This document shows, piece by piece, positions 17,974 to 49,489 of a DNA stretch of 64,000 nucleotides. Within the stretch, counting starts at the first letter, position 1. Every line of letters begins with the position of its first letter. Below the pieces are notes generated by a model. That model made no database searches, was not told the DNA's origin, and was given only the letters and a program-made list of their open reading frames with translations. The translations under genes were made by a program, and so were the position numbers. This DNA is from Rhodothermales bacterium. GTDB taxonomy: Bacteria; Bacteroidota; Rhodothermia; Rhodothermales; Bin80. The stretch spans positions 1,251,246-1,315,245 of the forward strand of contig CATQHT010000003.1 in the NCBI GenBank assembly GCA_958296045.1, given 5' to 3'.

Positions 17974-18245
17974 GCCCCTCTGTGCCACTTTTGAGCGCAC
18001 GACCTGCACAGCAGTGCACCGTCACGCGAGCGCCCTGCGTGCACCCACCACTAGCTCCCCTGGAGCACCCATCAGGTCGCTTGGGCAGCTGCCGTAACAC
18101 AGTCACGCCAGCAAGGTAAGCTGCCAACCGGCTGCGCCCAGCGTCCCTACGACCCTGCAGCGCTCAGCCTGGCGACAAAAATCGACACAAAATCGCCTCC
18201 GCGCGGCACTAATCAGCTGAAATAAACGGATTTTCGGACGGATAC

Positions 18246-22644: not shown

Positions 22645-22916
22645 GTATCCGTCCGAAAATCCGTTTATTTCAGCTGATTAGTGCCGCGCGGAGGCGATTT
22701 TGTGTCGATTTTTGTCGCCAGGCTGAGCGCTGCAGGGTCGTAGGGACGCTGGGCGCAGCCGGTTGGCAGCTTACCTTGCTGGCGTGACTGTGTTACGGCA
22801 GCTGCCCAAGCGACCTGATGGGTGCTCCAGGGGAGCTAGTGGTGGGTGCACGCAGGGCGCTCGCGTGACGGTGCACTGCTGTGCAGGTCGTGCGCTCAAA
22901 AGTGGCACAGAGGGGC

Positions 22917-24509
22917 TTATGCGCTGGCGCGCACGGGTGGGAGCGGCATCTGTGAGGTGGGGGCGCTTTCACGCTTGGTCCACCGATGTGGCAGCAATTC
23001 GCCGATGGCGGTGGTGTGCGTCGGCATGCGCTTTAGCACATCTTCTAGCCAGGCTTGTGGATCAATGCCATGCAGTTCGCAGGTGCCCAGCAGCGAGTAG
23101 ATGATAGCAGCGCGTTGGGCTGCTTTGTGTGACCCGGCATGCAGGTAGTTCTTGCGCCCCAGCGCTAAGGGTCGGATGCTGTTCTCGACGAGATTGTTAT
23201 CAATTTCGATCCGGCCGAAGCTTACGTACCGGAACAGCTTGTCCCACCGGTTCAGGGTATAGTTGACGGCTTTGCCCCAAGCGCTGGCTGGCGTGCCAGG
23301 GTGCTGTTGAAGCCATGCCTTGAGTCCTTCCAGGATGGGGACCGCCTCTTTTTGACGCGCTTGGTAGCGCTCGGTCAGCGTGCAGTTCGCCTCGCGCAGC
23401 CTGCGCTCTATCTTGTACAGCTGCTGGATCGTCGTCAGGGCATGCTCGGCCCGTTCCAGATCGCTCTGTTGTGCTTGGACGAACTTACGTCGGGCATGGG
23501 CCCAACACCCGTGCAAGATGATATCTGGATTGTGACCAAGTACATTGTAGGCGGCGTAGCCATCGCTCTGAACATGCCCTTTGAAGTCCCGGAAAGTGTA
23601 GAGCAGCCCTTTCTGGTCGCGGCCTTTACGATACTCCATCCACACGAATCGGCGCTCCGGTGACCGGTACACCCAGTAATACCCACGGTGGTGCTTGCCG
23701 ATCTTGCTGCGATTCTGCACCGGCATGGTCGTCTCGTCCACGCAGAGGTATCCGCTCTTGAGGGACTCTTTTATGAGCTCATGATAGAGGCATATCAAGT
23801 GGAATGCTACCTGGGAGACCCAGTCACTCAGGGTCGATGTGGAAATCGAAACTCCGAGGAGTGAGAACTGTTTTCGCAGGCGGAAGAGGGGAAGGTGAAA
23901 TACGTACTTAGCGATGGTTAAGTAAGCGAGCAGGCTTGGCTCAGCCATGTACTTTTAGTTCAGGACCTCTGGCAACGGTGCGATGATGATGCCGCCGGGA
24001 CCGTCCTCCTCGTCCGAATTCTCGCCGTCAGCATCCTTCTTCTTCCTACGAGGAACGTACTTGTACCGCCTGAGCACTTTGACGACCAGCTCCGCGCGCA
24101 CGTACTCTAACGTTTCCTTATCTTCGTAGCCCATGCGCTGCATGCCCGAGACATCTTCCTTGGACTCCACGACGGTCACGTCGCGCCTCAGGTGGCGCGG
24201 GAAATTCTTTTGCAGGCGGCGGAACTTCCGCCTCGCTTTCCGCGATGCTTTCTTGAGCTTCGGGGGCACAGGAGTCGCCGTGTCCATCTTTAACGACGGC
24301 GCTTCGTCGTCGGAAGACTCGGGAAACAGGGGCTTCTGTGTGGGATCCGCACCATCTTGCGGCACAAAGCGCTCATTCTTCGCTCCGTGTATCAGGCGCA
24401 CAAGTTCGTCGCATTCAGCCTTGACCGCGTCCAGACGGTCATGCAAGCTGCTGTACTTCTCGCGCAACGAGGCACTCTCCGCCTTCAGCGCCACTATTTG
24501 CTCCCGCAA
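22917..24509 (-). pseudogene. tnpC: IS66 TnpC transposase, right arm, with in-frame TAA
   Basis: The exact counterpart of 16381-17973. The coiled-coil and zinc-region part is at 24509-23955 and the catalytic part at 23948-22917, separated by the same in-frame TAA and in the same frame. Catalytic segments LCVDETTMPV, HGCWAHARRKF and NNLVENSIRPLALGRKN are intact. Having the identical lesion in both arms means one was copied from the other after the stop arose. Confidence 0.85.
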
Positions 24510-24649
24510 CGAAGCGATAATAGATGCCGAGTCCCCAGCCGGAGCCGAAGAGCGGTCTGTGCGAGCATGAAGCTTTGACTATACTATAGGCATACAATCC
24601 CCCAGTTTAAGATACTACACGAAAAAAAATTCAGCCCTCCGCAGCCACC

Positions 24650-26363
24650 CAGCGATTCTAAATTTGGGGCGTTCGGTGGGGGAACGGATCTTGTTTTGCG
24701 GTAGGCTACGCGCATGCGGGCTGTGAGTTAGGCGGTTGGTGGACGGAAGCAGGCAATAAGAAGCTACATTTGAGGCGCCACCAATCCGCCAGAGGCATAC
24801 GACGGCCTTCCAGGTCTCTGGAATTCCCGCTTACCCTATTTGTGACATACAATCTTTCAGGCTCTCGCGACGGAAAGCGCCAGCGGAGGCGAACGACGGT
24901 ACAACATGCTTTCCCAGAGACTTCGCCAGTCGGGAAAGCAATATCTCGTCGTAAGCACGCGCACTTCCTGAAAGAAAGCGCGCCGCACCTGGTAGGATGC
25001 TCGGCATTGCCTCCACAACCCTTTTACTTGGTCGAGCATCGTATGCAGGGCAAATGCCAACAGGTTGAGGGTGGCTAACAGGTTTGCCAGCCCATTTTTG
25101 CCATGCCCGAAGTTGTGTTTGAAGTTCTGTCCGTGTCGTGCGAGGATGTTGAAGCACTCGTTCTCGATTTTCCAGCGCGCCCGCCCACAAAGAGCAACCT
25201 CCTGTACATTGTGCTTCGTTACCGTCAGGCTGGTGAAAAGCGTCGTGTAGAAGGTCTGCTTGTAGGTGCCCTGCTTTTGGCGTACCCGCACGGTCTTTTC
25301 CACCCATGTGCCGTGTACGGCATCGTCCGTGTTCCGAATCGGCAGATCGGTCATCCAGCGATAGCAGTGCTCTTCGTAGCGATGTGTCTTCTTGTTCTGC
25401 ACCCGAATCCAACCGGTGCTCTGGATATAGCGCTCGTGTAAAAACTTGAATAGCGTTTGATGCGACTTGGGTTTGACCACAAACAGGAAATCGGCGCCCG
25501 CATGGAGCACCTGTTGGCAGAAGGGGTGTGTAGCATATAGGGCATCTCCCAGATATACCGGACGATAGCGAGCCATGCGAGCTCCCCACTTCGTTAACCA
25601 CCGCTTAGCGGCATTGATCTCGCAATCCTGCTTGCGACGCCGCACCGAGTGCTGGTCGCCAGGATCATCCTGTGTGCGGACACACTCTGGCATCAACGGT
25701 ACCACCCGGTTGTGCCCTGGAGCCACCACAACCGCCGCCACCATGGTATGGAAGAACGAAGGACGCTTGTCTTTCCCCGTGCGACGAGAGGAGCATTGCT
25801 TACAATGGATTGTCCGAGAGGAATGAAACTCGATGCCATCAAGCGCCACAAGGATGCGATCCCTCAGACGCACAAACGGCGAAAAGTCTCCCTTGGAACG
25901 AAGCGTATCCAGCAGGTGCAGAAACAGGCGCTGAAATGAATCTGGCACCAGGCGGTCCAGCAGGTTGCGGATCTGCCCGTCAGAAGGAATGGCTTGCATA
26001 CCAAACAGCGTCTGGCAGGTGGAACGGCCCACGTCGTCCTCCATCCTCCGCTGAAAAGCAAGAAAGGAGGGCGATTGCAGAAAGAAGCAGGCAAATGCGC
26101 TCAACACGGCATCGGCCAGCGTGTAGCGCAGATTGGGCCCCTGACGGTTATCTTCAAATGTACCGGCGGCCGATCGGATGCGTTTCAGCGCATCGCGCAG
26201 CAGCTTGCTTGGTTTCATGGGTATACCTCAGTGAAAGACAAAAGCACGCTATAGCAGGGCATCGCAGGACCGGTATTGCCAGTCCACACACCCATCATAC
26301 ACATAACGTCTGCTGAACAGGCATTCCCGTAAACCCCTCATGCACCCAAATTTAGAATCGCTG
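24650..26363 (-). mobile_element. IS4-like insertion sequence, copy B' (intact, in right IS66 arm)
   Basis: 1714 bp with the same perfect terminal repeats as copy B. The 9-bp duplication GCAGCCACC (complement of GGTGGCTGC) occurs at 24641-24649 and 26364-26372. Position and sequence match copy B, so it was duplicated as part of the arm and is not an independent hit. Confidence 0.95.
24857..26218 (-). CDS. IS4-like transposase, intact (copy B')
   Basis: A 453-residue DDE transposase, residue-for-residue the same as 14672-16033, with the same catalytic Asp regions and the RWKIENECFN block. It has no stops or shifts, so together with copy B it is a likely source of active transposase for the damaged copies at 1-1625 and 46080-47796. 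Confidence 0.9.
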   Translation of the reverse strand: MKPSKLLRDALKRIRSAAGTFEDNRQGPNLRYTLADAVLSAFACFFLQSPSFLAFQRRMEDDVGRSTCQTLFGMQAIPSDGQIRNLLDRLVPDSFQRLFLHLLDTLRSKGDFSPFVRLRDRILVALDGIEFHSSRTIHCKQCSSRRTGKDKRPSFFHTMVAAVVVAPGHNRVVPLMPECVRTQDDPGDQHSVRRRKQDCEINAAKRWLTKWGARMARYRPVYLGDALYATHPFCQQVLHAGADFLFVVKPKSHQTLFKFLHERYIQSTGWIRVQNKKTHRYEEHCYRWMTDLPIRNTDDAVHGTWVEKTVRVRQKQGTYKQTFYTTLFTSLTVTKHNVQEVALCGRARWKIENECFNILARHGQNFKHNFGHGKNGLANLLATLNLLAFALHTMLDQVKGLWRQCRASYQVRRAFFQEVRVLTTRYCFPDWRSLWESMLYRRSPPLALSVARA

Positions 26364-26694
26364 GCAGCCACCGGGCGCGAGTAACGCCGACGATAACGAA
26401 CAGACCTCAGTGACACCCCCTCTAGAAGACAAACAACCTGCGTCCAATCCGGCGTGCCCGTCACAGGAAGCTCAAACGTGCCCTCCTCCAATCGCTTGTA
26501 GTAGAGCACAAACCCGCTGCGATCCCACACCAGAAGCTTGATATGTGTCCGACGGCGGTTGATGAAAACGTAGACGTCTCCCGATAACGGATCCCGCTTC
26601 ATACCGGAACGAACCAGACCGCATAACCCGTCAAAACCCTTCCGCATGTCCGTCGGCCCGCGGTGCAGATAAAAGCGGTGAGAAGAACCCAGCG

Positions 26695-27018
26695 CTAACA
26701 TGAGCAGCCACCCTCACCATGAATCAACGCCGATAGAAACACCGACGGCACCGCCGAAAATACACGCAAACAGGCACCGCCCGGAAACTGCAACTCCATC
26801 AACGCGCCCCCGTCATGCCGAACAGGCGAAGAAACCTCCACAAACGTGTCGCCCACCACCTCAGACGAAGATGCCGCGTACTTTCGGCGCCAGTACGTCA
26901 GCTGACTACGCGTTATGCCATGCTCCTGGCAAAATACCTCCGCATGCTGCGTTCCACGCAAATAACGCGCGATCAACGGAAACATCACCGCCGATGTGCC
27001 CCTAATTCTCGTTGCCAT
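26695..27018 (-). CDS. tnpA: IS66 TnpA, right arm
   Basis: A 107-residue helix-turn-helix protein identical to 13872-14195. It overlaps the start of tnpB by 7 bases. It is intact. The left-arm copy has the ISNCY-like element just upstream of it, so only this copy keeps its native upstream region. Confidence 0.8.
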   Translation of the reverse strand: MATRIRGTSAVMFPLIARYLRGTQHAEVFCQEHGITRSQLTYWRRKYAASSSEVVGDTFVEVSSPVRHDGGALMELQFPGGACLRVFSAVPSVFLSALIHGEGGCSC

Positions 27019-29817: not shown

Positions 29818-30643
29818 ATGCAACAACTCTATTATCGGGCCTTCCCGCTGAGCCTAGCGCTGCTGTTCGCTGCTGCAGGCGCTGCGCAGGTACCCAACTA
29901 CATCTTTGAGCAAGGCCAAGACGAGTACGACTGCTTCAGGATCCCTGCAGTGATCAATGCTCCAGATGGATCCGTGATAGCTTTTGCAGAAGGCCGCCGG
30001 CATAGCTGTTCGGATACGGGCGATGTGGATCTGGTGATGAAGCGATCCACGGACAATGGCCTCACCTGGGGTGCATTGCAGGTGATCTGGGACCAGGAAG
30101 ACAACACCGTGGGCAACCCGGCACCGGTAGTGGACGCCGAGACGGGAGGACTATTCTTGCTGTCCACCTGGAACCTCGGGAGCGATCGTGAACCCGACAT
30201 CATCAGTCAGACGTCGACGGATACGCGCCGCGTGTTTGTGCTGGCGTCCAAGGACAGCGGCCACACGTGGGATGAGCCAAGGGAGATCACCGCCAACGTG
30301 AAAGACTCTTCCTGGACCTGGTACGCAACCGGTCCGGGATCCGGGATCCAGCTGCAACATGGTTCCCACGCGGGTCGCCTCATAGTAGCCTGCGACCATA
30401 TAGAGGCGAACACCCGACACTACTACTCCCATGTGATCTACTCCGATGATCACGGGCAGTCATGGCAGCTGGGCGGATCTACGCCGCAGCACTTCGTTAA
30501 CGAGTCGGAGGTCGCAGAACTCGAAGGGGGCGGGCTACTGCTCAACATGCGCAACTACGCCCAGGGCGAGAGGCACCGCAAGGTCGCCCGAAGCTTTAAC
30601 GGCGGAGCCACATGGAGCGACCTGGAGTCCGATACTACCCTAG

Positions 30644-32479
30644 GAGCCTGCGATGCAGTAGCACCCGTTATGCATGGTGGCGGTGCTTGCTGACGTGGCA
30701 TCTTTGGAACAGTCACCCTGTACCCACTGCATATATGCATCTTTATGATTGTAGGTACATATATGTGTGTGTTAGCGCTACTTGCCGTCCCTTAAGCCCA
30801 TGCCGACAACGTTTCGCCCGTATGCACCAGAGGATCCGGTGGTGATGCCACCATCGCTCCAGGACTGGCTTCCAGAGGATCACCTGGCTTTTTTCGTGTC
30901 TGACTTTGTAGACCGCGCGGACCTTGCGCCCTTTTTTGCTCCATACGAGGGGGATGGGCGCCGCAATAGACCCTATCATCCTGCCATGATGTTGAAGGTG
31001 TTGATCTACGCTTATGCCACCGGCGTCACCTCATCGCGGCAGATTGCGCAGAAGTTGGAGACTAATATTGCCTTCCGTGTACTGGCGGCCAATAACATGC
31101 CGCACCATCGTACGATTTGTGCGTTCCGGCAGCGTCATTTCCAGGATTTCCGTGCTTTGTTTGTTCAGGTCGTCTTGATGGCACAGAATTCTGGCTTGAT
31201 TGATTGGGGGAAGGTTGCGATTGATGGCACCAAAGTCAGGGCGAATGCGAGTAAGCGTAAGGCGATGAGCTACGCGCGACTGAACAAGGAGGAGAAGCGG
31301 CTGCAGTCAGAGGTTGACGCGCTGTTGGCGCAGGCGCAGGAGGAGGATGAGGTAGAAGACGCGTTGTTAGGAGAGGAAGTGCGGGGCGACGAGTTGCCGC
31401 CGGCGCTGTCTACTCGCGCAGATCGTAAAGCTGCTCTTGATGCAATGGAGGCGGAGCGCACGCGTGCGAGCAAAGCGATTGGCAGCAAAAAGCAGGGGGT
31501 TGACACGACACAGCCCACCGAGGCAGTGGATTCGTCCCCATCGTCTCCAGAATTGCCGACGGATACGACCGACCTGTCCGTAGAAGTCCCCGCGGATAGC
31601 AGTGTGGAGGAGGAGATTGCACGCAGGCGGAAGAAGCTTGCCAACATCCGAAAGGCTAAGTCCAACTTGAAGGCCAGACAGCGGGAGAGGGATGAGGCTA
31701 AGGGGCGTAAGCCAAGTCAGAAGCGCAATCCGAAAGGGGGTCCAGCGTACAAGCGTCCGTTCGGGGAACCCGAAGCCAAGGCACAAAGCAATTTCACCGA
31801 TCCCGAAAGCCGCATCATGCTGACGAGCCAGGATGGCTTCCAGCAAAGTTACAATGCACAAACGGTAGTGGACGGGCGCAACCAGTTAATCGTGGAAACA
31901 CGCGTGACTAACCAGGCTACAGACCAAGATCAGCTTTTACCGATGGTAAGGGCCACCCAAGATACCTATGGTCAGCAGCTCGCTATTGTGATAGCGGACG
32001 CAGGCTATTGCAGCGAGGCCAATATCACCGCGTTGAACACCCGCGGCATAGATGGCTATATCGCCGTCGGTCGGGAGAGCGGGAAGGTGGGATCCATCAA
32101 TCCAGAGACACGGCCCGCTACGGCACGCATGTGGGACAAGCTGCGTACGAAGGAGGGGCACGCGGTCTACCGCGAGCGCAAGTGGCTCTCGGAGGCACCC
32201 AACGGTTGGATAAAGTCTGTCCTCGGCTTTCGACAATTCAGCGTTCGGGGACTGAAAAAGGTTGCTGGCGAGTGGGACCTGGTGTGCTTAAGTCTGAATC
32301 TGAGAAGGCTATTTGCAATGCAGGTGGCAAATGTGACGTAAAGGCAACAAAAATCAGGTGAATAGGGCTGCTCCAAGACAAGAAAGGGCTGCCAACGGAC
32401 ACCATTTGCCTTGGGCTGTACGGCTGACCAGCAATCCGGCCCACGAAAGCAAATGTGATCGTTCCTACGGCGCATGCCC
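30644..32479 (+). mobile_element. IS1182-family element in the sialidase gene
   Basis: 1836 bp bounded by the palindromic tetranucleotide CTAG at 30640-30643 and 32480-32483, the typical IS1182 target duplication. Removing the element and one CTAG rejoins the sialidase frame (DTTLVEPI). The terminal repeats are weak (GAGCCTGCG against GGGCATGCG). Confidence 0.85.
30800..32341 (+). CDS. IS1182-family transposase
   Basis: I choose the ATG at 30800 (MPTTFRPYAPED), the family's usual start, over an upstream TTG-type start. It encodes 513 residues. The N-terminal part has RPYHPAMMLKVLIYAYATGV and MPHHRTICAFRQRH; the catalytic part has KVAIDGTKVRANAS (Asp), AIVIADAGYCSEANI (Asp) and YRERKWLSEAPNGWIKSVLG (Glu). 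An acidic Ser/Thr-rich insert with coiled-coil sequence lies between the first and second Asp. It is intact and likely functional. Confidence 0.9.
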   Translation: MPTTFRPYAPEDPVVMPPSLQDWLPEDHLAFFVSDFVDRADLAPFFAPYEGDGRRNRPYHPAMMLKVLIYAYATGVTSSRQIAQKLETNIAFRVLAANNMPHHRTICAFRQRHFQDFRALFVQVVLMAQNSGLIDWGKVAIDGTKVRANASKRKAMSYARLNKEEKRLQSEVDALLAQAQEEDEVEDALLGEEVRGDELPPALSTRADRKAALDAMEAERTRASKAIGSKKQGVDTTQPTEAVDSSPSSPELPTDTTDLSVEVPADSSVEEEIARRRKKLANIRKAKSNLKARQRERDEAKGRKPSQKRNPKGGPAYKRPFGEPEAKAQSNFTDPESRIMLTSQDGFQQSYNAQTVVDGRNQLIVETRVTNQATDQDQLLPMVRATQDTYGQQLAIVIADAGYCSEANITALNTRGIDGYIAVGRESGKVGSINPETRPATARMWDKLRTKEGHAVYRERKWLSEAPNGWIKSVLGFRQFSVRGLKKVAGEWDLVCLSLNLRRLFAMQVANVT

Positions 32480-33018
32480 CTAGTAGAACCTATCCGCCAG
32501 GCGAGCCTACAGCGCTACCAGTTTGCCGACGAAGGGCAGAGCATCCTCTTGTTTTCCAACCCCGCAAGTGCCGAGCGGCGTGAGAATATGACCGTACGCG
32601 CCAGCTTTGATGAAGGCAAAACCTGGCCGTAGCAGATGCTTATCTACGGACCCATGGCCGCATACTCCGACTTGGTCCGGCTACCAGACGACGTTATCGG
32701 CCTATTGTACGAGGCTGGCCCGGACCAAGCCACCCCCTATCATGGCATCGCCTTCAGGCGAATTCCGCCGAGTGCCCTGAAATAGGCCCCCCAACCTGAC
32801 TTTTTGAAATGGCTCTCCACGGGTCTCTGTAAGCTCGGAAACACGCGCGTAAGCACGCTATTGACCCAGTCTCACTGGGAACCGCCCACTGCGCATACAC
32901 ACACGTGACCAACAGCGTTACACATTGCCAAGAGTTACCTACATTACCGCTCCAGCGCGGCAGCGATCGCTCAAACCCAACTAGGAATGGTGCAATCCCA
33001 AAGGTCCAGGGCCCACCG

Positions 33019-35538
33019 ATGAGCCAATATCCATCAGAAGGTGACTTTCTTGGTAGCGGCACCGTGCTGCGCGGCTACGAAATCAAGTCAGTAGTCGGAC
33101 GAGGCGGTTTCGGAGTTGTGTACAAGGGGCACCACAGGATATTGGATTCTGATGTGGCAATCAAGGAGTTCTTCCCGCGTGAGTTGGCACGGCGCAGATC
33201 TGGGGTCGTCCAGCCTATGGAGTCAGGATGTGAAGAGTCCTTCGAGGACGGCCTCCAGCGCTTCATGGCTGAGGGGCGCAGGTTGGAGGCGTTGCGAGAT
33301 CACCCGAATATTGCCATATGCCGTGATTTGTTTCTAGCCAACGGCACGTCCTACATGGTGATGGACTTCGTGGATGGGCTGCCGCTGTCTGCGTTGCTGG
33401 GGCAGCGTGAAAACAACGGCGACCCGTTTACGGAGGAGGACTTGCTTGATGTGATTCTACCGCTGCTTGCTGGCCTTAAGCGAGTGCACGAATCAGGATT
33501 ATACCACCGAGACATCAAGCCCTCAAACATCCTGATTCGGCGGCAGGATAACCAACCGGTGCTGATAGACTTTGGTGCGGCGAAGCAGGAGTCATCGGGT
33601 GCAACGAAGTCCATGGCGCCCTATACCGACGGCTACGCTGCTATGGAGCAAGTCGGTGAAGGAACCATCGGGCCATGGACTGACATCTACGGCGTTGGGG
33701 CGCTTATGTGGCGCATGGTGGCGGGTGGCAGTCCTCCATGGGAGCCACCTAGTCCAACAAAGGTCCAGCATAGGGCCTTGGCGGTCCTACAGGGCAGAAC
33801 CGATCCGTTGCCGCCTGCCAGCGCTGTTGGGTCAGGAAGATTTTCGCCGAGGCTACTCAAGTCCATTGACCAGTGTTTGGCAATCTCGGATTCCTCTCGA
33901 ATTCGCTCTTGCGATCAGCTACTTGTTAAGATACGAGAGCGCACTGTAGTAGCCGTCCCACCGCCTGCTGCAACGACAGGGAGAGTACGAAAAACCGTTA
34001 GCCAATCACGTTTGAAACAGCAGGTACGCACAAGGCGAAATCAATTCGCGGCTTTGCGTCCGACTACACGTGGTCTTGTGTTGCTCGTGGTATTGTGTCT
34101 GGTTACGGTCGCGATCGCTATGATTGCGCGAGGAATTGACGACAGTGTGCCCCTAACTGTTCAGACGGTGCCAGCAGATGCGCAGGTTGAACTTGTAGGC
34201 CATAGCGATACGTATAGTGCTGGAATGGCGCTTCGTCCCGGAACGTACCGTTTGAAGGTCAGTCAGCCAGGCTACGAATCGAAATCGGTTCAGATTAAAC
34301 ATGGAGCAGAGCCCACCCGCCGCCAAGTCATACTGAGCCCGATTAGCCCATCGCAGCCCAGGGATTCAGGCTTTGTGCTTCAGCCTGGTCTTGGTCAGAT
34401 CACACAGAGACCTAACAATCCACTACCTCCAAGAAAATCCTTTACAAGAGGATCGGACATGGACGAAGTGTTGGCGGTGCAGGGTACTCCCACAGGAATT
34501 AGAACGGACAAAGCCTTCGGTGTCGAATATTGGGACTACGGTGACCCCGTTCGGAGCTCAATTACATTCGATCTGTGGACCAAGCGGGTCAAGGGATGGT
34601 CGGACAGTGAATGGTCGGACAGTTCACGCATCCTTAAGGTGCAGATGCAGCCGAGACGGATCGTTTCAATGCTTAGCTTCACAAGAGGATCGGACATGGA
34701 CGAAGTGTTGGCGGTGCAGGGTACTCCTACAGGAATTAGGACGGACCAAGCCTTACGCGAAGAATATTGGTCCTATGGGGGCTTCTTTTCGAGCAGGGTT
34801 ACATTCGATCTGCGGACCAAGCGGGTCAAGGGATGGTCGGACAGTTCAGGCAACCTTAAGGTGCAAATGCAGCCGAGGCGAATCGTTTCAGCGCATAGCT
34901 TCACAATAGGATCGGACATGGACGAAGTGTTAGCGGTGCAGGGTACTCCTACAGGAATTTCGCAAGGCTATGGCGAAGAACAGTGGGGCTACGGTAATAG
35001 CGAGGTTACATTCGATCTGCAAACCAAGCGTGTCAACGGGTGGACGGACTACAGAGACATCCTTAAGGTGCAGATGCAGCCGAGGCGGATCGTTTCAGCG
35101 CATAGCTTTACAAGAGGATCGGACATGGACGAAGTGTTGGCGGTGCAGGGTACTCCTACAGGAATTAGAACGTCCCAATCCTGGGGCGACGAACAGTGGG
35201 CCTACGGGTCGAGCAGGGTTACATTCGATCTGCGGACCAAGCGGGTCAAGGGATGGTCGGACAGTTCAGGCAACCTTAAGGTGCAGATGCAGCCGAGACG
35301 GATCGTTTCAGCGCGTAGCTTCACAAGAGGATCGGACATGGACGAAGTGTTGGCGGTGCAGGGTACTCCTACAAGCATTTGGGAGTGGACATCCGGTGGC
35401 GAAGAATATTGGGAATACGGTGTTTCGGAGCCCTTTCCCAAAGAAGCTCCCGGGTGGAGCACAGTTATATTCGATCTGCGGACCAAGCGGGTCAAGAATT
35501 GGTCGGACATGCCAGGCAACCTTAAGGTGAACTATTAG
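33019..35538 (+). CDS. Membrane Ser/Thr protein kinase with PEGA domain and five VQGTPT repeats
   Basis: I start at 33019 (MSQYPSEGDFLGSGTVLRGY); the frame is open 38 codons further up, but the paralogue conserves this Met. It has 839 residues. The Hanks-type kinase domain (~20-305) has GRGGFG, VAIKE (Lys 49), YHRDIKPSN (Asp 165) and IDFGAAK, so it should be active. A basic linker follows, then one transmembrane helix (~352-371), a PEGA domain (~380-440), and five repeats of 65-80 residues, each starting SFTRGSDMDEVLAVQGTPT and containing a YG and a VTFDLRTKRV strand. Kinase inside, repeats outside: likely a sensor. It sits 355 bp before the channel/FHA/phosphatase/vWA operon. Confidence 0.85.
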   Translation: MSQYPSEGDFLGSGTVLRGYEIKSVVGRGGFGVVYKGHHRILDSDVAIKEFFPRELARRRSGVVQPMESGCEESFEDGLQRFMAEGRRLEALRDHPNIAICRDLFLANGTSYMVMDFVDGLPLSALLGQRENNGDPFTEEDLLDVILPLLAGLKRVHESGLYHRDIKPSNILIRRQDNQPVLIDFGAAKQESSGATKSMAPYTDGYAAMEQVGEGTIGPWTDIYGVGALMWRMVAGGSPPWEPPSPTKVQHRALAVLQGRTDPLPPASAVGSGRFSPRLLKSIDQCLAISDSSRIRSCDQLLVKIRERTVVAVPPPAATTGRVRKTVSQSRLKQQVRTRRNQFAALRPTTRGLVLLVVLCLVTVAIAMIARGIDDSVPLTVQTVPADAQVELVGHSDTYSAGMALRPGTYRLKVSQPGYESKSVQIKHGAEPTRRQVILSPISPSQPRDSGFVLQPGLGQITQRPNNPLPPRKSFTRGSDMDEVLAVQGTPTGIRTDKAFGVEYWDYGDPVRSSITFDLWTKRVKGWSDSEWSDSSRILKVQMQPRRIVSMLSFTRGSDMDEVLAVQGTPTGIRTDQALREEYWSYGGFFSSRVTFDLRTKRVKGWSDSSGNLKVQMQPRRIVSAHSFTIGSDMDEVLAVQGTPTGISQGYGEEQWGYGNSEVTFDLQTKRVNGWTDYRDILKVQMQPRRIVSAHSFTRGSDMDEVLAVQGTPTGIRTSQSWGDEQWAYGSSRVTFDLRTKRVKGWSDSSGNLKVQMQPRRIVSARSFTRGSDMDEVLAVQGTPTSIWEWTSGGEEYWEYGVSEPFPKEAPGWSTVIFDLRTKRVKNWSDMPGNLKVNY
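34438..35536 (+). repeat. Five in-frame tandem repeats in the kinase gene
   Basis: Units begin near 34438, 34675, 34900, 35104 and 35320, with lengths of about 204-237 bp. Large blocks such as GATCGGACATGGACGAAGTG and the stretch encoding KVQMQPRRIVSA are nearly identical between units. The segment after GTPT and the segment around YG vary in sequence and length. This pattern indicates recent expansion with local diversification of an extracytoplasmic domain. Confidence 0.9.
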
Positions 35539-35893: not shown

Positions 35894-36700
35894 ATGAATC
35901 TGCTTGAATTGCAAGAGTCGACCAGTCGCGCTGTCGGCGCCCTCGCTGCGCTGCTGGCTGGCTCTGGAGTAATAGCGATCCTTACCGCTCTGCTCCCGGT
36001 ACCGGAAGTTGGTACCGCCCGCATCATTCTTTCCGCCCTACTCTTGGATCGGGGAAGCGACCTCTACCCGCTGACGGTCCAGAATGTGATGTGGCTAACG
36101 TTCTTCATAGGTCTGGGTGAATTGTGGCCTCGGTTCAGGCGCGCACGTGCGGAAATCAGGCAATTTGGCATCGGGCTGTTGCCAGACGATCCGGCCACCA
36201 TCCTTCGGTCGAAGGATCTGATTGCTATCTACCGAAGAGTCATGAAGGCCAAGCGTTCCACGCACTATCGCCTTCAGCGACTAATTTTGCGCGCAATTCA
36301 ACAGTTCCAGATCAGCAGGTCTGTGGCCCAGGCGAATAGCCTGGTGGACTCCAGCCTTGAGCTCATGCAGCACGAGATCGACCTCAAGTACAGCATGGTA
36401 CGCTACATTACTTGGCTAATACCCACGCTGGGTTTCATTGGGACGGTCATCGGCATCGCGCTGGCCCTAACGGCGGCTAGCGACATGCCGAGCCTAGATG
36501 ATGCGCAGGCTGTGCAGGCTTGGTTTGGGGCCATGACCGCCAAGCTGGGGGTAGCATTCAATACCACGTTCATGGCACTCGTGATGGCCGCAGTCTTGGT
36601 GTTCCTGCAGCAAATTGCCCGGGGCAAGGAGGAGGCTGCCCTCAACAGCGCGGGCCAGTACTGTATGGACAACCTCATCAACCGGCTCTACGAAGAGTAA
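35894..36700 (+). CDS. MotA/TolQ/ExbB-family proton-channel subunit
   Basis: 268 residues. Hydrophobic helices are at ~15-37, ~60-80, ~168-196 and ~222-243. The last two frame the family core: ITWLIPTLGFIGTVIGIALA, then a conserved loop, then VAFNTTFMALVMAAVLVFLQ. MotA/TolQ/ExbB proteins form pentameric channels around a dimer of MotB/TolR/ExbD, coupling proton flow to movement. The partner is probably the last gene of this operon, which has a TolR-like N-terminus. No exbD or tolR of normal type is nearby. It is first gene of a five-gene operon with gaps of 12 bp or less. Confidence 0.8.
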   Translation: MNLLELQESTSRAVGALAALLAGSGVIAILTALLPVPEVGTARIILSALLLDRGSDLYPLTVQNVMWLTFFIGLGELWPRFRRARAEIRQFGIGLLPDDPATILRSKDLIAIYRRVMKAKRSTHYRLQRLILRAIQQFQISRSVAQANSLVDSSLELMQHEIDLKYSMVRYITWLIPTLGFIGTVIGIALALTAASDMPSLDDAQAVQAWFGAMTAKLGVAFNTTFMALVMAAVLVFLQQIARGKEEAALNSAGQYCMDNLINRLYEE

Positions 36701-36712
36701 GAGCGGATCCAA

Positions 36713-37377
36713 TGGCGAAAAAGCTCAACAAGGACGGACTACCGACGGATGTGCCTTCGGCGGCACCGCCAGCGGCCAAGGGCCTGTTTCGTGGCCTTGA
36801 GTCCGGTCCGAAGGATGACACATCTGACAAGGACCAGCTCCCGCGCGGTCGCAGCGTAATAGGGCGTGGAGAGTTGCCTACCAGACCAGCCGTTCGCCCG
36901 CATGCAGACTTGGATGCCTTTGCACCTGCGGGCGGTGAGCCGCGCACGGTTGTCGCCGTGGGGCGAAAACGGTATGCCAGCGAACCCAGGGACCGACTTT
37001 CGGTGTCAGACCCCATGGCTGATCCCGTCGTGGGGTGGCTTGTGGTTGTAGGCGGGCCCGGCCGCGGGTCGGCTGTAAAACTGGGAAGCGGGCAAAACTC
37101 CGTGGGAAGGGGGCCCAAGGCCCGGGCACGGATCGACTTCGGGGACCGGCATATTTCGCGAGATTCGCATGCCATTGTGACGTATGATCCCAGGAATAAT
37201 CGGTTCCACATCCAACAGGGTGCGGGCACCAACCTGACTTACCTGGGTGGAGAGCCGGTTCTGTCTCCTGCGGCGTTAAGGTCCGGCAGCGAGATTACGC
37301 TTGGCGAGACCACGTTGCGCTTCGTTGCCCTCTGCGACGAACACTTCACATGGAATAGAGGAGGTTTGTCCCAATGA
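36713..37377 (+). CDS. Soluble FHA-domain protein
   Basis: 221 residues from the ATG at 36713, 12 bases after the channel gene. The first ~105 residues are charged and look disordered. The FHA domain (~110-205) shows SVGRGPKARARIDFGDRHIS, SRDSHA and the TNLTYLGG loop, i.e. the Gly-Arg, Ser-x-x-His and Asn positions used to bind phosphothreonine. It lacks membrane segments. It probably reads kinase output for the neighbouring channel/vWA complex (inferred). Its end overlaps the phosphatase start by 4 bases (ATGA). Confidence 0.85.
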
Positions 37378-38120
37378 GGCAGGCCGCAGTAGCATGGGGT
37401 ACGATCAAAGGAGACCGAGAATCGCAGCAGGACGCTGCGAAATGGGTGGAATGGAAGAAGGGCAAGTATCTTCTTGTGTTGGCAGACGGAATCGGTGGCG
37501 CTGCCGGGGGAGATGTCGCGAGTGAGACTGCGGTTGCCGGCTTTGTAGAGTCGTTCATGAAGAACCCAACTGTTGCGGTTCGTAGTCGGTTGCTGGCGGC
37601 GCTGAAGGATGCCAACGATGCCGTCTGCGACGAGAAACGGCAGGCGCCAGCTCTTGCCTCCATGGGCACAACCTTGATTGGAGTTGCAATAGCAGAAGCC
37701 AAGCTGACTTGGGTGAGCGTGGGAGATAGTCCCCTCTGGCTGATCAGAAATGGAGCTATTGACCGATTGAATGAGAATCATTCCATTGGCGGGCTGCTTG
37801 ACATGAGAGCAGAGGCGGGGGAAATCACTGCCGAAGAAGCGGCGAATTCTCGCCAGAGAGGGGTTCTGCTTGAAGCGGTCCAGGGTGAGGACATAAAGTA
37901 TGTGGATGCACCTCTGGAGGGGTATGACCTACGGCCTGGAGATACTGTTATTGCCGCGAGCGACGGTGTCGAAACTTGCTCGGGCGAAGAGCTTACTGAT
38001 ATTGTTGCGGCAGGCAGGCCCTCCGCTACAGACATTGTCGGTGCAATTCTGGATGCCGTCGCGGAGCACGAGTGGCCTGGACAGGACAACGCAACGCTGA
38101 TTGTATACCGACCGAGGTAA
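37374..38120 (+). CDS. PP2C-family Ser/Thr protein phosphatase
   Basis: 248 residues, compact, without membrane segments. The metal-binding motifs are complete: GDRESQQDA near the start, VLADGIGG, SMGTTLIGV, VSVGDSPLWLI, AASDGVE and GQDNATLIVY. It should remove phosphate from Ser/Thr and so oppose the kinase encoded at 33019. It overlaps the FHA gene by ATGA, indicating coupled translation, and the next gene starts 9 bases later. Confidence 0.9.
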   Translation: MRQAAVAWGTIKGDRESQQDAAKWVEWKKGKYLLVLADGIGGAAGGDVASETAVAGFVESFMKNPTVAVRSRLLAALKDANDAVCDEKRQAPALASMGTTLIGVAIAEAKLTWVSVGDSPLWLIRNGAIDRLNENHSIGGLLDMRAEAGEITAEEAANSRQRGVLLEAVQGEDIKYVDAPLEGYDLRPGDTVIAASDGVETCSGEELTDIVAAGRPSATDIVGAILDAVAEHEWPGQDNATLIVYRPR

Positions 38121-38128
38121 GGAAGACC

Positions 38129-39568
38129 ATGAAGACACGTAGCCTCAGTATCGTACTTGGCGTAGTACTGGCCGCGGGATTGGTCGCACAACGGGCGGAG
38201 TGCACGGTATTCAGATTGGTAGTCCAGGCCGAAGGGGTAGTAGTCGCACAGGGTTTTGGAGTCCTTGTAGCCGAACACCTTCTTTTGACAGACGCTGATC
38301 TGATTGACAGCGGAGACCAGGTCCTGGTCCAGGATTTCGCAAGCGGCGCGCGCTATGCGGCGACAATTCATACACGCTCCAGGGGGCTCGTACTTCTTTC
38401 GGTACCGGGCCTGACTGGCACCGCGGCATCCATTGCGGAAGGATCCCCAGACTCTGACAGCAGCGTGTACCTTCTGGTTGCCGATGGGACGCGTCGGCGA
38501 GGATTACTGCTGTCGATTGCATTCTCGGACAGCACGGCCTCGCGGTTCCACTTAACGATGACCGTTGGGCTACATGAGGTCGGGGCGCCGCTGATGAACA
38601 ACTGTGGACACCTTGTTGCCTTGGTAGCCGGTGAGCTGGGGATGAGAGATGAGGAAGCCGAGGACAACATGGTGCGTGGCTGGTCTCGCCAGAATCTTGT
38701 TGCGTTCTTGCAAGAGAGCCAGATAGACTTTCTGACCGAAGACGAACCGTGCCCATCCGCTGAAGAGCAGTTGGAACAAGCTAAGGCTACCAGTTCAGCG
38801 CTCGAAGAGGAGAGGCAATCACTTGAGGAGGAACTCAAGCAACTGGAAGAGTCTGTAGAGCAGGATCAGCAGCGGAGTGCCGAAACGATCGCCGCAGTAA
38901 CTGCACAAAAAGCTTCGCTTGAAAGGCGCCTTGTGGAGACCGCTACCGAGCTGGCTGAGCAAGATTCCGTTATCGCGGAGAAGGATAGGCTTCAGTCTGA
39001 TTTGGAGCAGATTCGGGCGGCGCGTGACTCACTTGCGCAGCAAGCTGAGGCAGACCAGAAGCAGGCACAACGGCAACTGCGCGCGCTGACCGGCGCAGGA
39101 ATTGCTCTGATGCTGTTGGCGGCTCTGCTGGTATGGTGGTTTTGGAGGCGTCGCAAGCAGGCATGGGATGAGTTTAGCGAGACTGATGCGAAGCTCAAGG
39201 AGGCAGAAGACGAAATCGAGCGCAAGTCCGCTTCGTTTCCAGACATAGTGCTTTCGGGCAGCGGGCCGGCTGGGGATGAGTTTCATGTTAAGGTGAACGG
39301 ATACGCCTTGGTGCAGAGCGAAGCCGGTGCAATCATAGGGCGATCGTCTTCGCAGTCGGACTATGTTATTAGCGAAGCGAGCGTTTCAAGGCGGCATGCA
39401 CGTGTGCGCGTCTCAGGGAAAAGTCTTACGATCGAGGATCTTGGGAGTCTCAATGGAACAAGTATCAACGGTGAGCGCCTTGCAGTAGGCCAGCCCCAGC
39501 AAGCTGCCAGCGGGGCCACGATTGGGATAGGCGATGTGACTCTCAACGTTCAAATGCTCAAGCCGTGA
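38129..39568 (+). CDS. Membrane protein: degenerate trypsin-like domain, coiled coil, TM, FHA
   Basis: I start at 38129 (MKTRSLSIVLGVVLAAGLVA), with AAGGA upstream and a signal peptide, giving 479 residues. Residues ~25-205 resemble a trypsin-like beta barrel, but the expected catalytic His site reads LLLTDADLI and the Ser site reads HEVGAPLMNN, so it looks inactive. Next come a coiled coil (~215-325), a helix (LTGAGIALMLLAALLVWWFW), a basic stop and a cytoplasmic FHA domain (~385-479: AIIGRSSSQSDYVI, VSRRHARV, LGSLNGTSINGE). It links an extracytoplasmic sensor to phosphothreonine recognition inside. It overlaps the next gene by 4 bases. Confidence 0.8.
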   Translation: MKTRSLSIVLGVVLAAGLVAQRAECTVFRLVVQAEGVVVAQGFGVLVAEHLLLTDADLIDSGDQVLVQDFASGARYAATIHTRSRGLVLLSVPGLTGTAASIAEGSPDSDSSVYLLVADGTRRRGLLLSIAFSDSTASRFHLTMTVGLHEVGAPLMNNCGHLVALVAGELGMRDEEAEDNMVRGWSRQNLVAFLQESQIDFLTEDEPCPSAEEQLEQAKATSSALEEERQSLEEELKQLEESVEQDQQRSAETIAAVTAQKASLERRLVETATELAEQDSVIAEKDRLQSDLEQIRAARDSLAQQAEADQKQAQRQLRALTGAGIALMLLAALLVWWFWRRRKQAWDEFSETDAKLKEAEDEIERKSASFPDIVLSGSGPAGDEFHVKVNGYALVQSEAGAIIGRSSSQSDYVISEASVSRRHARVRVSGKSLTIEDLGSLNGTSINGERLAVGQPQQAASGATIGIGDVTLNVQMLKP

Positions 39569-40608
39569 AGCCTCTGCGTCGCGAACTCAATGTGTTCTCC
39601 ATCTCGGCACTGGATCTGTTTGCGTCCGGGATGGGAGTCTTCGTGCTACTTGCCATCATTGCTATTCCGTTTTTTCCCAATACCGGTGATTCTGAGGTTA
39701 GGATAGAGGACCTGGAAGGCGAGCTGGAGGTTGCCCAGACTCGTGTACGGGCCTTGGAAGGCCTAATGGCAAGGATGCAGCAGGAAAGCGATATGCACTC
39801 TGCTGTAGCCGTGGCGCTTTCGGAAGCCCAACAGCAGTTGGAGGATGCGAGCTCGCAGATACGTGAGCTCGAATGGGCATTGGCGCAGGGGCAGGACGCG
39901 TCTCGAGAATTGGAATTGGAACAGCAATTGGCTGCGATGCGGGAGGTTTTGGCAGAGGCGCAAGTACGAGTATCGGACCTGGAAGCGGCAAGCCGCGAGT
40001 TGAAGCTGCCACCTCTGGACGTAGTGATTTGCCTTGACGTGACCGGTAGCATGACGAACCAGGTTGAGGGTATCAAGCGAGAGATTGCTTCACTGGCTCG
40101 GGTGCTGGACAGAGTGGCGCCTTCGGTTGGAATCGGTATTGTGGCGTTTGGCGATCGGCGGTGGACGCAGCCAATTCACCGCTTGGCCATAGTTGAAACC
40201 ACGCGCTTGTCCAGGATCACGGCATTCATCAATTCGCTGCGCGCAAACATGGATCCCAACTGGTCGCTGAATCTTGATCAGCCGGAAGCAGTCGCCACTG
40301 CCATGAATGAAGCCATGTCCATGCCTTGGCGCGAAGCCAGCGAGAAACGCTACGTGATAGTAATCACGGACAACGCTGCATATCCAGAAAGGGTTACCAC
40401 AGCGATCGCAGCGGCCAGAAGCTTCGGAGCACAGCAAGGACACTTCGTATCTGCCGTGCGTGCGAATTTTCCGTACGATCCGGTCGCGAGAGAGGCGGCC
40501 CTGCGCTTTCTAAGGGATTTGGCGCAGGCTGGGGGTGGCAACTTTGTGGATGCGGCAGGCGGCGAGTCTATGCTGAGCACTATTTTGCTGGCCATACTTG
40601 GGACGTGA
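39565..40608 (+). CDS. TolR-like membrane protein with coiled coil and vWA domain
   Basis: 347 residues. The N-terminus has a short cytoplasmic part and one helix with an embedded acid: LNVFSISALDLFASGMGVFV then LLAIIAIPFF. Asp 17 sits where TolR/MotB carry the proton-binding Asp. A coiled coil (~48-150) leads to a vWA domain (~150-345) with an intact MIDAS (CLDVTGSMT) and later VIVITDNAAYP. I read it as the stator partner of the MotA/TolQ-like protein, with a vWA replacing the peptidoglycan-binding domain. This is inference from architecture. Last gene of the operon. Confidence 0.75.
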   Translation: MKPLRRELNVFSISALDLFASGMGVFVLLAIIAIPFFPNTGDSEVRIEDLEGELEVAQTRVRALEGLMARMQQESDMHSAVAVALSEAQQQLEDASSQIRELEWALAQGQDASRELELEQQLAAMREVLAEAQVRVSDLEAASRELKLPPLDVVICLDVTGSMTNQVEGIKREIASLARVLDRVAPSVGIGIVAFGDRRWTQPIHRLAIVETTRLSRITAFINSLRANMDPNWSLNLDQPEAVATAMNEAMSMPWREASEKRYVIVITDNAAYPERVTTAIAAARSFGAQQGHFVSAVRANFPYDPVAREAALRFLRDLAQAGGGNFVDAAGGESMLSTILLAILGT

Positions 40609-46079: not shown

Positions 46080-47796
46080 CAGCGATTCTAAATTTGGGTG
46101 CATGTAGGGTTTACGGGAATGCCTGTTCAGCAGACGTTATGTGTATCATGGGTGTATGGACTGGCAATACCGGCCCTGCGATGCCCTGCTATAGGGTGCT
46201 TTTATCTTTCACTCTGAGGTACACCCATGAAACCAAACAAGCTGCTGCGCGATGTGCTGAAACGCATCCGATCGGCCGCCGGTGCATTTCAGGATAACCG
46301 TCAGGGGCCCAATCTGCGCTACACGCTGGCCGATGCCGTGTTGAGCGCATTTGCCTGCTTCTTTCTGCAATCGCCCTCTTTTCTTGCTTTTCAGCGGAGG
46401 ATGCAGGACGACGTGGGCCGTTCCAACTGGCAGACGCTGTTTGGCATGCAAGGCATTCCCTCTGACGGGCAGATCCGCAACCTGCTGGACCGCCTGGTGC
46501 CAGATTCATTTCAGCGCCTGTTTCTGCACCTGCTGGATACGCTTCGTTCCAAGGGAGACTTGTCGCCGTTTGTACGTCTGAGGGATCGCATCCTTGTGGC
46601 GCTTGATGGCATCGAGTTTCATTCCTCTCGGACGATCCATTGTAAGCAATGCTCCTCTCGTCGCACGGGGAAAGACAAGCGTCCTTCGTTCTTCCATACC
46701 ATGGTGGCGGCGGTTGTGGTGGCTCCAGGGCACAACCGGGTGGTACCGTTGATGCCAGAGTGTGTCCGCACACAGGATGATCCTGGCGACCAGCACTCGG
46801 TGCGGCGTCGCAAGCAGGATTGCGAGATCAATGCCGCTAAGCGGTGGTTAACGAAGTGGGGAGCTCGCATGGCTCGCTATCGTCCGGTATATCTGGGAGA
46901 TGCCCTATATGCTACACACCCTTTCTGCCAACAGGTGCTCCATGCGGGCGCCGATTTCCTGTTTGGTGGTCAAACCCAAGTCGCATAGCACGCTATTCAA
47001 GTTTTTACACGAGCGCTATATCCAGAGCACCGGTTGGATCCGGGTGCAGAACAAGAAGACACGTCGCTACGAAGAGCACTACTATTGCTGGATGTCCGAT
47101 CTGCCGATTCGGAACACGGACGATGCCGTACACGGCACATGGGTGGAAAAGACCGTGCGAGTACGCCAAAAGCAGGGCACCTACAAGCAGACCTTCTACA
47201 CGACGCTTTTCACCAGCCTGACGGTAACGAAGCACAATGTACAGGAGGTTGCTCTTTGTGGGCGGGCGCGCTGGAAAATCGAGAACGAGTGCTTCAACAT
47301 CCTCGCACGACACGGACAGAACTTCAAACACAACTTCGGGCATGGCAAAAATGGGCTGGCAAACCTGTTAGCCACCCTCAACCTGTTGGCATTTGCCCTG
47401 CATACGATGCTCGACCAAGTAAAAGGGTTGTGGAGGCAATGCCGAGCATCCTACCAGGTGCGGCGCGCTTTCTTTCAGGAAGTGCGCGTGCTTACGACGA
47501 GATATTGCTTTCCCGACTGGCGAAGTCTCTGGGAAAGCATGTTGTACCGTCGTTCGCCTCCGCTGGCGCTTTCCGCCGCGAGAGCCTGAAAGATTGTATG
47601 TCTCAAATAGGATAAGCGGGAATTCCAGAGACCTGGAAGGCCGTCGTATGCCTCTGGCGGATTGGTGGCGCCTCAAATGTAGCTTCTTATTGCCTGCTTC
47701 CGTCCACCAACCGCCTAACTCACAGCCCGCATGCGCGTAGCCTACCGCAAAACAAGATCCGTTCCCCCACCGAACGCCCCAAATTTAGAATGGCTG
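46080..47796 (+). mobile_element. IS4-like insertion sequence, copy C
   Basis: 1717 bp with ends CAGCGATTCTAAATTTGGG and CCCAAATTTAGAATGGCTG (one mismatch). The 9-bp duplication GGGAAAAAG is perfect at 46071-46079 and 47797-47805. It is inserted at the last codons of the second kinase gene. The transposase has a frameshift, so it is probably no longer autonomous. Confidence 0.95.
46227..47589 (+). pseudogene. IS4-like transposase, frameshifted (copy C)
   Basis: The first frame (MKPNKLLRDVLKRIRSAAG) runs to about 46965, where an extra G (TTTGGTGGTC against TTTGTGGTC in intact copies) shifts the frame and leads to a stop at 46988. The second frame continues VVKPKSHSTLFKFLHERYIQ to 47589 with the RWKIENECFN block. 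Otherwise it is very close to the intact copies. Confidence 0.9.
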
Positions 47797-49287
47797 GGGA
47801 AAAAGGGAAACAGCCAAAACCCCAATAAGAAATCCCACCCAACCAGAAGCAACCATAACCCAGAGTAATTTAAGCCAATCTGAGTCGTCAATTGCTCGCT
47901 TAATCAAAACGCCGATGGGACCGAGCGCAAAACCAGAAGTACCCATAACCCCGAGTAATTTAAGCCAACTTGGGTCGTCAATTGCTCGCTCAATAAAAAC
48001 GGCACTGAGAAAGACCGGGTACAGAAACCACAACAATATCAACCAACCTGGTTCGCCATCGTCAAATGCTCCCTTAGTCCAAACATCATGCGATTTGAAC
48101 GCGATAATAAGCCCCCACCCTATGACCATTAATAACCTCCACCAACTTGGGTCGCGACTTTCATGCTCAATCCAAGCCCCAATGAAAATGACCGCGGACA
48201 TAAACCAGAGCAATACCATATATGACTTAAACGAACGTGGAGGCCAACGCAAAGCCGCGGATTGGTTTGGCCTTGTGCGTACTTGCTGTTTCAAACGTGG
48301 TTGGCTAACGGTTTTTCGTACTCTCCCTGTCATTGCAGCAGGCGGTGGGACGGCTACTACGGTGCACTCTCGTATCTTAACAAGTAGTTGATCGCAAGAG
48401 CGAATTCGAGAGGAATCCGAGATTGTCAAACACTGGTCAATGGACTTGAGTAGCCTCGGCGAAAATCTTCCTGACCCAACAGCGCTGGCAGGCGGCAACG
48501 GATCGGTTCCGCCCTGTAGGACCTCCAAGGCCCTATGCTGGACCTTTGTTGGACTAGGAGGCACCCATGGAGGACCGCCACCCGCCACCATGCGCCACAT
48601 AAGCGCCCCAACGCCGTAGATGTCAGTCCATGGCCCGATGGTTCCTTCACCGACTTGCTCCATAGCAGCGTAGCCGTCGGTATAGGGCGCCATGGACTTC
48701 GTTGCACCCGATGATTCCTGCTTCGCCGCACCAAAGTCTATCAACACCGGTTGGTTATCCTGCCGCCGAATCAGGATGTTCGAGGGCTTGATGTCTCGGT
48801 GGTACAATCCTGATTCGTGGACTCGCTTAAGGCCAGCAAGCAGCGGCAGAATTACATCAAGCAAGTCCTCCTCCGTAAACGGATCGCCGTTTTTTTCACG
48901 CTGCCCCAGCAACGCAGACAGCGGCAGCCCATCCACGAAGTCCATCACCATGTAGGATGTGCCGTTGGTTAGAAACAAATCACGGCATATGACAATATTC
49001 GGGTGATCTCGCAACGCCTCCAACCTGCGCCCCTCAGCCATGAAGCGCTGGAGGCCGTCCTGGAAGGACTCTTCACATCCTGACTCCATAGGCTGGACGA
49101 TCCCAGATCTGCGCCGTGCCAACTCACGCGGGAAGAACTCCTTGATTGCCACATCAGAATCCAATATCCTGTGGTGCCCCTTGTACACAACTCCGAAACC
49201 GCCTCGTCCGACTACTGACTTGATTTCGTAGCCGCGCAGCACGGTGCCGCTACCAAGAAAGTCACCTTCTGATGGATATTGGCTCAT
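47785..49287 (-). CDS. Membrane Ser/Thr kinase, paralogue with a multi-helix C-terminus
   Basis: 500 residues from 49287 (MSQYPSEGDFLGSGTVLRGY). Residues 1-345 are nearly identical to the kinase at 33019, including GRGGFG, VAIKE, HRDIKPSN and IDFGAAK, and about 190 bp upstream also match. After QQVRTRPNQSAALR the sequence is unrelated: about six hydrophobic helices with three spaced units RDPSWWRLL, DDPSWLKLL, DDSDWLKLL. No PEGA or VQGTPT repeats. The IS4-like element replaces the last residues: the native end was FPA and stop, now FPQPF with the stop inside the IS repeat. Probably still functional. Confidence 0.85.
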   Translation of the reverse strand: MSQYPSEGDFLGSGTVLRGYEIKSVVGRGGFGVVYKGHHRILDSDVAIKEFFPRELARRRSGIVQPMESGCEESFQDGLQRFMAEGRRLEALRDHPNIVICRDLFLTNGTSYMVMDFVDGLPLSALLGQREKNGDPFTEEDLLDVILPLLAGLKRVHESGLYHRDIKPSNILIRRQDNQPVLIDFGAAKQESSGATKSMAPYTDGYAAMEQVGEGTIGPWTDIYGVGALMWRMVAGGGPPWVPPSPTKVQHRALEVLQGGTDPLPPASAVGSGRFSPRLLKSIDQCLTISDSSRIRSCDQLLVKIRECTVVAVPPPAAMTGRVRKTVSQPRLKQQVRTRPNQSAALRWPPRSFKSYMVLLWFMSAVIFIGAWIEHESRDPSWWRLLMVIGWGLIIAFKSHDVWTKGAFDDGEPGWLILLWFLYPVFLSAVFIERAIDDPSWLKLLGVMGTSGFALGPIGVLIKRAIDDSDWLKLLWVMVASGWVGFLIGVLAVSLFPQPF

Positions 49288-49489
49288 CGGTGGGCCCTGG
49301 ACCTTCGGGATTGCACCATTCCTAGTTGGGTTTGAGCGGTCGCTGTCGATCTGGGGCAGTAATATAGGTAACTTTTGGCAATGTGTGACGCTGTTGGTCA
49401 CGTATGTGTATGCGCAATGGGCGGTTCCCAGCCAGACTGGGTCAATAGCGTGCTTACGCGCGTGTTTCCGGGCTTACGGACCCAACTTC

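Follow-up and report, generated by a model that had tools for sequence, protein, structure and literature searches.

A putative receptor-type Ser/Thr kinase with five tandem, possibly BamE-like C-terminal units beside a conserved gene cassette in a Rhodothermales bacterium

PASTA receptor kinases (PknB/Stk1) contain a kinase domain, a transmembrane helix and a tandem series of small extracytoplasmic domains. The kinase described here, K1, has the same kinase-transmembrane-tandem domain layout. No PASTA domain is matched in K1 by Pfam at E<=1, and K1 scores 112.6 against the NCBIfam PknB model, for which the cut-off is 450.

Modular Ser/Thr kinases are also found in cyanobacteria. According to the portion of the study available, their modules include WD40, TPR, pentapeptide and DUF323 domains and are not distributed strictly according to the kinase tree (PMC2176072). 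The K1 family resembles these kinases, as that portion describes them, in having recruited modules that are mostly C-terminal.

K1 is an 839-residue membrane Ser/Thr kinase encoded at 33019-35538 on the plus strand of the window, by which we mean the whole 64,000-nt stretch of Rhodothermales DNA that was analysed. The kinase domain (Pfam Pkinase, E 7.1e-35) spans residues 20-296. It contains the motifs VAIKEF, HRDIKPSN and DFG, all of which have established roles in protein kinases, and K1 is therefore assigned to the Hanks-type Ser/Thr kinases. The kinase domain is followed by a single predicted hydrophobic (transmembrane) segment at approximately 34063-34131 (+) and by a PEGA-like domain at residues 379-429 (34153-34305, +), which scores 18.9 bits, under the Pfam cut-off of 20.8.

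The C-terminus of K1 consists of five tandem units of 69-79 residues (34438-35535, +). TRF places the tandem array at 34440-35373 with a period of 213 and a score of 1106, the top of its three rows for the window. Unit 1 (34438-34674, +) has 79 residues, including a 5-residue insert after GWSD. Unit 2 (34675-34896, +) has 74 residues, and unit 3 (34897-35103, +) has 69 with a 2-residue gap. Unit 4 (35104-35316, +), which was used for modelling, has 71 residues, and unit 5 (35317-35535, +) has 73, with an 11-residue loop insert and without the QPRRIVSA linker. Unit length thus varies mainly in the loop after YG, which has 0, 3 or 11 extra residues. The VQGTPT motif is present in all five units. 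A protein search of the genome with unit 2 gave strong matches to the five K1 units only; the weak remainder comprised three matches with E 0.18-0.63.

Across the ten unit pairs the DNA identity of the first 21 codons (63 nt) is 90-98%, that of the cores (codon columns 22-48) is 54-75% and that of the 48-nt RVTFDLRTKRVKGWSD block after the core is 75-100%. The entire units share 65-89% protein identity over 60-74 aligned residues. An earlier, sequence-only reading of this DNA had described five tandem units with near-identical DNA blocks and variable cores, and both the TRF result and the unit identities agree with that description. The same reading called the array extracytoplasmic; this placement is a hydropathy prediction, in which the array lies after one hydrophobic segment at residues ~349-371.

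K1 has a paralogue, K2, at 47785-49401 on the minus strand, which starts at GTG 49401 or ATG 49287. The two genes form an inverted duplicate (32826-34071, +, and 48235-49480, -) with 96.07% identity over 1246 nt. Over 350 codons pS is 0.054 and pN is 0.024. The similarity is weak from there to ~34140 and then ends. No repeat unit is seen in K2, so the claim that the paralogue lacks the repeats also stands. K2 has instead a polytopic membrane tail with several hydrophobic segments and two 90-nt direct repeats (79%) at 47815-47994 (-). The 1.25-kb inverted repeats are ~14 kb apart and both end near the transmembrane segment, so an inversion between the copies would swap the kinase tails.

We also considered K1 and K2 as defence kinases. 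Both match PADLOC mad6 (E 4.9e-46 for K1, 4.2e-48 for K2) and PD-T4-6 (E 2.7e-40 and 1.2e-40). These matches were judged to be general kinase similarity and the candidate was rejected; against NCBIfam MADS6 the kinases score 108 and 111 bits, far under the cut-off of 460. A Gabija-type pair is located at 53517-57130 (-), with a GajB-like helicase (PADLOC E 1.6e-204) and a GajA-like OLD nuclease (E 3.5e-196).

Other repeats occur in the window. The segments 13901-18245 and 22645-26989 are inverted copies of each other (100% identity, 4345 nt or more) with mirror-image ORFs; probably a single mobile segment is present here twice. A BNR/sialidase-like gene (29818-30693, PF13088, E 6.2e-25) stops shortly ahead of a transposase at 30782 and was possibly cut by its insertion. 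A 24-nt repeat with 8.3 copies and 97% match (50822-51021) lies within a transposase-like ORF (50373-52157), and a 131-nt unit with 1.9 copies (52843-53095) lies between ORFs of at least 150 residues.

Kinases of the K1 type are found at E<=1e-50 in seven of the 114 genomes of the order, with 20 matches in total. Pfam identifies WD40 in two of five relatives (L044, L058), Sel1 in two (L046, L057) and Excalibur in one (L024). By eye, the tails of further relatives are Sel1-like, WD40-like, polytopic membrane, helix-turn-helix-like with membrane segments, or nuclease-like, and one is truncated. A kinase tree was built from 19 of the 20 matches (L060, with an in-frame stop, was left out), and four of its 16 inner branches are open. 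The tail labels change nine times on this tree, where the minimum is seven and the shuffled mean is 12.7; an equally low number was seen in one of 200 shuffles. The tails have therefore been inherited in part and exchanged in part. The pattern expected of interchangeable C-termini, in which related kinase domains bear tails that are not related, is present both in the K1/K2 pair and among the 19 rows of the tree. A WD40-bearing sister kinase aligns between two genomes of one genus with no gaps.

Downstream of K1 is a cassette of five genes, all on the plus strand. It comprises a MotA/TolQ/ExbB-family protein (35894-36700, PF01618, E 2.8e-10), an FHA-domain protein, FHA1 (36712-37377, PF00498, E 3.9e-8, scanned as 36520-37377), a PP2C-family phosphatase (37374-38120, PF13672, E 1.5e-14), a further FHA protein, FHA2 (38132-39568, PF00498, E 1.1e-17, scanned as 38072-39568), and a vWA protein with a hydrophobic N-terminus (39565-40608, PF13519, E 1e-8). 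FHA2 also has a trypsin-like match (PF13365) at 21.7 bits, below the cut-off of 27.6. The N-terminus of the vWA protein presumably resembles MotB/ExbD-type partners.

The kinase and the cassette are associated across genomes. PP2C homologues occur at E<=1e-20 in 16 of the 114 genomes of the order; those below 1e-70 occur in seven, which are exactly the seven with the kinase, and the next best match has E 1.4e-27. In the six other cassette genomes (tblastn, eight stretches) the genes for MotA, FHA1, PP2C and FHA2 are always found together and in the same order. The vWA gene is present in five of these six and absent from the 6.2-kb contig of the sixth, G239. In the window and in four genomes (G136, G137, G138 and G139) the closest match on the upstream side of MotA is a kinase in the same orientation. 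The kinase follows FHA2 in G239, and the short cassette contig of G145 has no kinase match, so the upstream position is not universal.

The MotA-like protein is found at E<=1e-20 in three of 296 genomes sampled across the phylum, all belonging to the family of the window. A Rhizobium leguminosarum plasmid, pRlBT01d (L088), has matches to MotA (45%), FHA1, two PP2C and two kinases, as well as to the N-terminus of the vWA protein, all within ~16 kb and on both strands, which indicates a related association outside the order Rhodothermales. For the vWA protein, a plasmid search at E<=1e-8 returned nothing. One literature search that combined PP2C, FHA, MotA, von Willebrand, protein kinase and ExbB returned no report within its reach, and as far as this search goes the cassette is undescribed.

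The sequence-only reading had proposed modelling the repeat fold. A model of unit 4 (seven sequences) has a mean pLDDT of 81.3, with a helix at 7-15 and strands at 20-24, 29-34, 37-42 and 48-53. The fold matches of this model are modest. The top VIA-align row is a spliceosome chain (Z 6.2, rmsd 2.4, 55 aligned), followed among the rows considered here by SAV1118 (4h0a; Z 5.9, rmsd 1.6, 48 aligned), BamE (7txx; Z 5.2, rmsd 1.7, 47 aligned), OsmE (4dm5; Z 4.9, rmsd 1.8, 48 aligned, 27% identity) and an SCP-domain protein (4ifa; Z 4.8, rmsd 2.7, 53 aligned). The last four rows are tied with beta-propeller blades. We take 4h0a and 4ifa to contain CAP-associated N-terminal domains; CAP_assoc_N (PF14504) as the identity of the unit was rejected, with none in 60 class genomes. 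Foldseek gave no match at E<=0.001.

The five units could instead form one closed five-bladed beta-propeller and not a string of separate domains. BamB heads the Foldseek rows (E 0.077), propeller blades are numerous among them, and WD40 repeats are present on sister kinases. A model of two units, too poor for use (pLDDT 67.3, pTM 0.44), consists almost wholly of beta structure, and the first helix is missing from it. The number of units argues against a closed propeller, as it is one in L025, three in a Paenibacillus protein and four in three DnaJ-TM proteins. The helix also lies within the confident part of the single-unit model, and the VIA-align rows and L031, a Bacteroidota protein, lead to BamE. 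We consider a propeller very unlikely.

K1 scores 19.8 bits against the Pfam BamE family (PF04355), below the cut-off of 23.2. When units were scanned singly one of 11 matched, with a best E of 0.18, and the three-unit Paenibacillus protein reaches 22.6 bits, just under the same cut-off. L031 is found by repeat profile A2 at E 7.9e-4 and passes PF04355 with 30.8 bits. The unit presumably resembles BamE/OsmE in having a G-S/T...V...G-T/S-P motif followed by W-x-Y, which is also visible in L031. The bridge through L031 is weakened because two proteins found at the same level in the same 395-genome search are not BamE: L030 (E 7.2e-4) is by eye not a repeat unit, and L032 (E 8.1e-4) has no Pfam BamE match at E<=0.1. 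Sequence searches of the PDB gave no match in one case and three in another (best E 0.17). With the bridge borderline and the fold rows modest, we describe the unit as BamE-like and not as a member of BamE. It is most likely a BamE/OsmE-type domain with one helix and a beta meander, although neither the Pfam score nor the fold nor the bridge proves this.

A six-frame search of 60 genomes found no BamE match above the cut-off. Two proteins that fall below the cut-off in this search, L061 (37.3 bits) and L063 (29.8 bits), pass PF04355 when scanned whole. L061, from a class genome, is a 200-residue frame with two tandem BamE-like stretches.

The array is matched at E<=0.001 in eight of 244 genomes of the same class, including the window's own. 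One of these matches is a kinase (G145), three are DnaJ-TM proteins (G158, G159 and G160), and one is a DnaJ-TM protein with one unit from the family of the window (G142). The last is the same protein as L025, a Rhodothermales protein with DnaJ, a transmembrane segment and a single unit. G133 has a short fragment beside stop codons, and in G222 no unit emerged when the frames were searched with a profile. Seven of 395 genomes sampled across the phylum match the repeat profile at E<=0.001. The Paenibacillus protein is plasmid-encoded and has its units after one hydrophobic segment; it is the one record found by the plasmid search. Spread of the unit by viruses or plasmids was rejected, as nine pattern matches in IMG/VR yielded no confirmed relative and none was found among phages. 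A query based on L025 gave a single weak Streptomyces match (E 0.5).

Besides K1, units were found on one kinase only, L024 from Bacteroidota bacterium RHO3_bin_5, which is the same protein as the G145 kinase (L049). In addition to its Excalibur domain, portions of three or more units flank a gap of 100 N. Two neighbouring copies downstream of the gap differ at three of 105 nt and one of 35 residues, and their visible core is identical. The DnaJ-TM proteins L010, L012 and L013 come from three genera, and every one of them has four units. In these proteins whole units have a mean identity of 0.61 at the same position (12 comparisons) versus 0.45 between positions (18), and the cores 0.49 versus 0.20. 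If our reading of the arrays is right, the young arrays of K1 and L024 and the settled arrays of the DnaJ-TM proteins offer a natural comparison.

The differing cores had been interpreted earlier as a diversifying ligand-binding surface. The part of this claim that stands is descriptive: the units look like duplicates with similar flanks, and most of their differences map to the loops of predicted hairpins, which are possible sites of a binding surface. By the Nei-Gojobori method pS is 0.135 and pN 0.072 in the flanks, compared with 0.320 and 0.349 in the cores. The flank omega is 0.51 (95% 0.24-1.02) and the core omega (dN/dS) is 1.12 (95% 0.48-2.56). The core pS was equalled in 30 of 5000 column permutations. 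Such synonymous divergence is beyond what selection on amino acids alone predicts; it is no less a sign of exchange between units that has homogenised the flanks, or of cores that are older, than of selection. The core alignment is uncertain because of the length changes, which can inflate pS. Among the biallelic informative sites 37 of 55 pairs conflict with a single tree. Mosaic units would give this result, and repeated mutation in the diverged cores could contribute.

A true diversifying recognition surface, in which selection or recombination changes the cores and copy number as in the repeats of fungal NLRs, would accommodate the contrast between flanks and cores, the core omega point estimate, the mosaic sites and the repeat modules, such as WD40 and Sel1, on related kinases. 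Selection is not demonstrated by these data, since the omega limits extend down to 0.48 and synonymous sites are raised as well. The identical visible cores of L024 and the stable DnaJ-TM arrays and WD40 sister kinase speak against such a surface as a general property. The accessible text on fungal NLRs defines high internal conservation as at least 85% identity between repeats over at least 100 residues (PMC4986451), and only one of the ten K1 unit pairs exceeds 85%. We judge this surface unlikely. Plain drift would make the units recent duplicates under relaxed selection that later become position-specific, with cores that have no special role yet. This agrees with what Persi, Wolf and Koonin found in general, as far as the available part of their paper goes (PMC5120217), the core omega is near 1 and the DnaJ-TM arrays resemble the settled state. 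Drift alone requires neither length changes mainly in predicted hairpin loops nor almost invariant block DNA, and we hold it, as a full account, to be only a lesser possibility. As for the variation itself, ordinary drift among repeats seems to describe it better than a recognition device, which is unproven. The array was also considered as the target of a diversity-generating retroelement; a protein search of the genome found no second copy of the unit that could act as template, and on this ground the candidate was rejected.

Our preferred account, to which we give not quite even weight, is that K1 is a receptor-type Ser/Thr kinase with a transmembrane helix, a PEGA-like stalk and five BamE/OsmE-like domains, linked to the cassette. 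In our best reading, K1 serves the cassette system as a receptor kinase with an interchangeable sensor, and it probably reads an envelope cue. The functional steps are drawn from what is known of the families. The kinase domain would be cytoplasmic and, beyond one transmembrane helix, the stalk and array would be periplasmic. There the array may make multivalent contact with a repeating component of the envelope, be it a glycan, a lipid or a protein, and this would cluster K1 and lead it to autophosphorylate. The FHA proteins may read the resulting phosphothreonines and PP2C may reset them, the putative output being a complex that the MotA/ExbB-like and vWA proteins would form in the membrane. 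The array would have grown by tandem duplication, with exchange between units homogenising the structural blocks and the loop cores drifting under relaxed constraint.

A bolder version of this account makes the cassette and its tail-swapping kinases an undescribed membrane surveillance or conflict system, whose tails are recognition modules exchanged by recombination within kinase segments that are almost identical, such as those of K1 and K2, and whose BamE-like array is caught early in diversification; we regard this as distinctly improbable. If the receptor kinase account is right, a receptor kinase here uses BamE-like domains in tandem as its sensor, and kinases change their sensors as the phosphatase/FHA/channel-like cassette stays fixed. 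The locus would then be a testable system for the recruitment of sensors by bacterial kinases.

The K1 locus differs from the known systems that it resembles. Kinase, PP2C and vWA genes are found together in described conflict systems as they are beside K1; relative to the accessible description, the K1 locus has a MotA/ExbB-like gene and two FHA genes in addition, and the conflict systems for their part include a GTPase component (PMC7159879). Compared with the modular cyanobacterial kinases, again within the available portion of that study, the BamE-like module is present only on the K1 side, and the K1 kinases are linked to a MotA/FHA/PP2C/vWA cassette (PMC2176072). The evolution of BAM is the subject of a separate paper (PMC3359395). 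The K1 units appear to share with BamE/OsmE (SmpA-OmlA, PF04355) a predicted helix and beta meander and a predicted extracytoplasmic setting. BamE/OsmE is a single lipoprotein, whereas in K1 the domain forms a tandem array on a kinase and scores below the Pfam cut-off.
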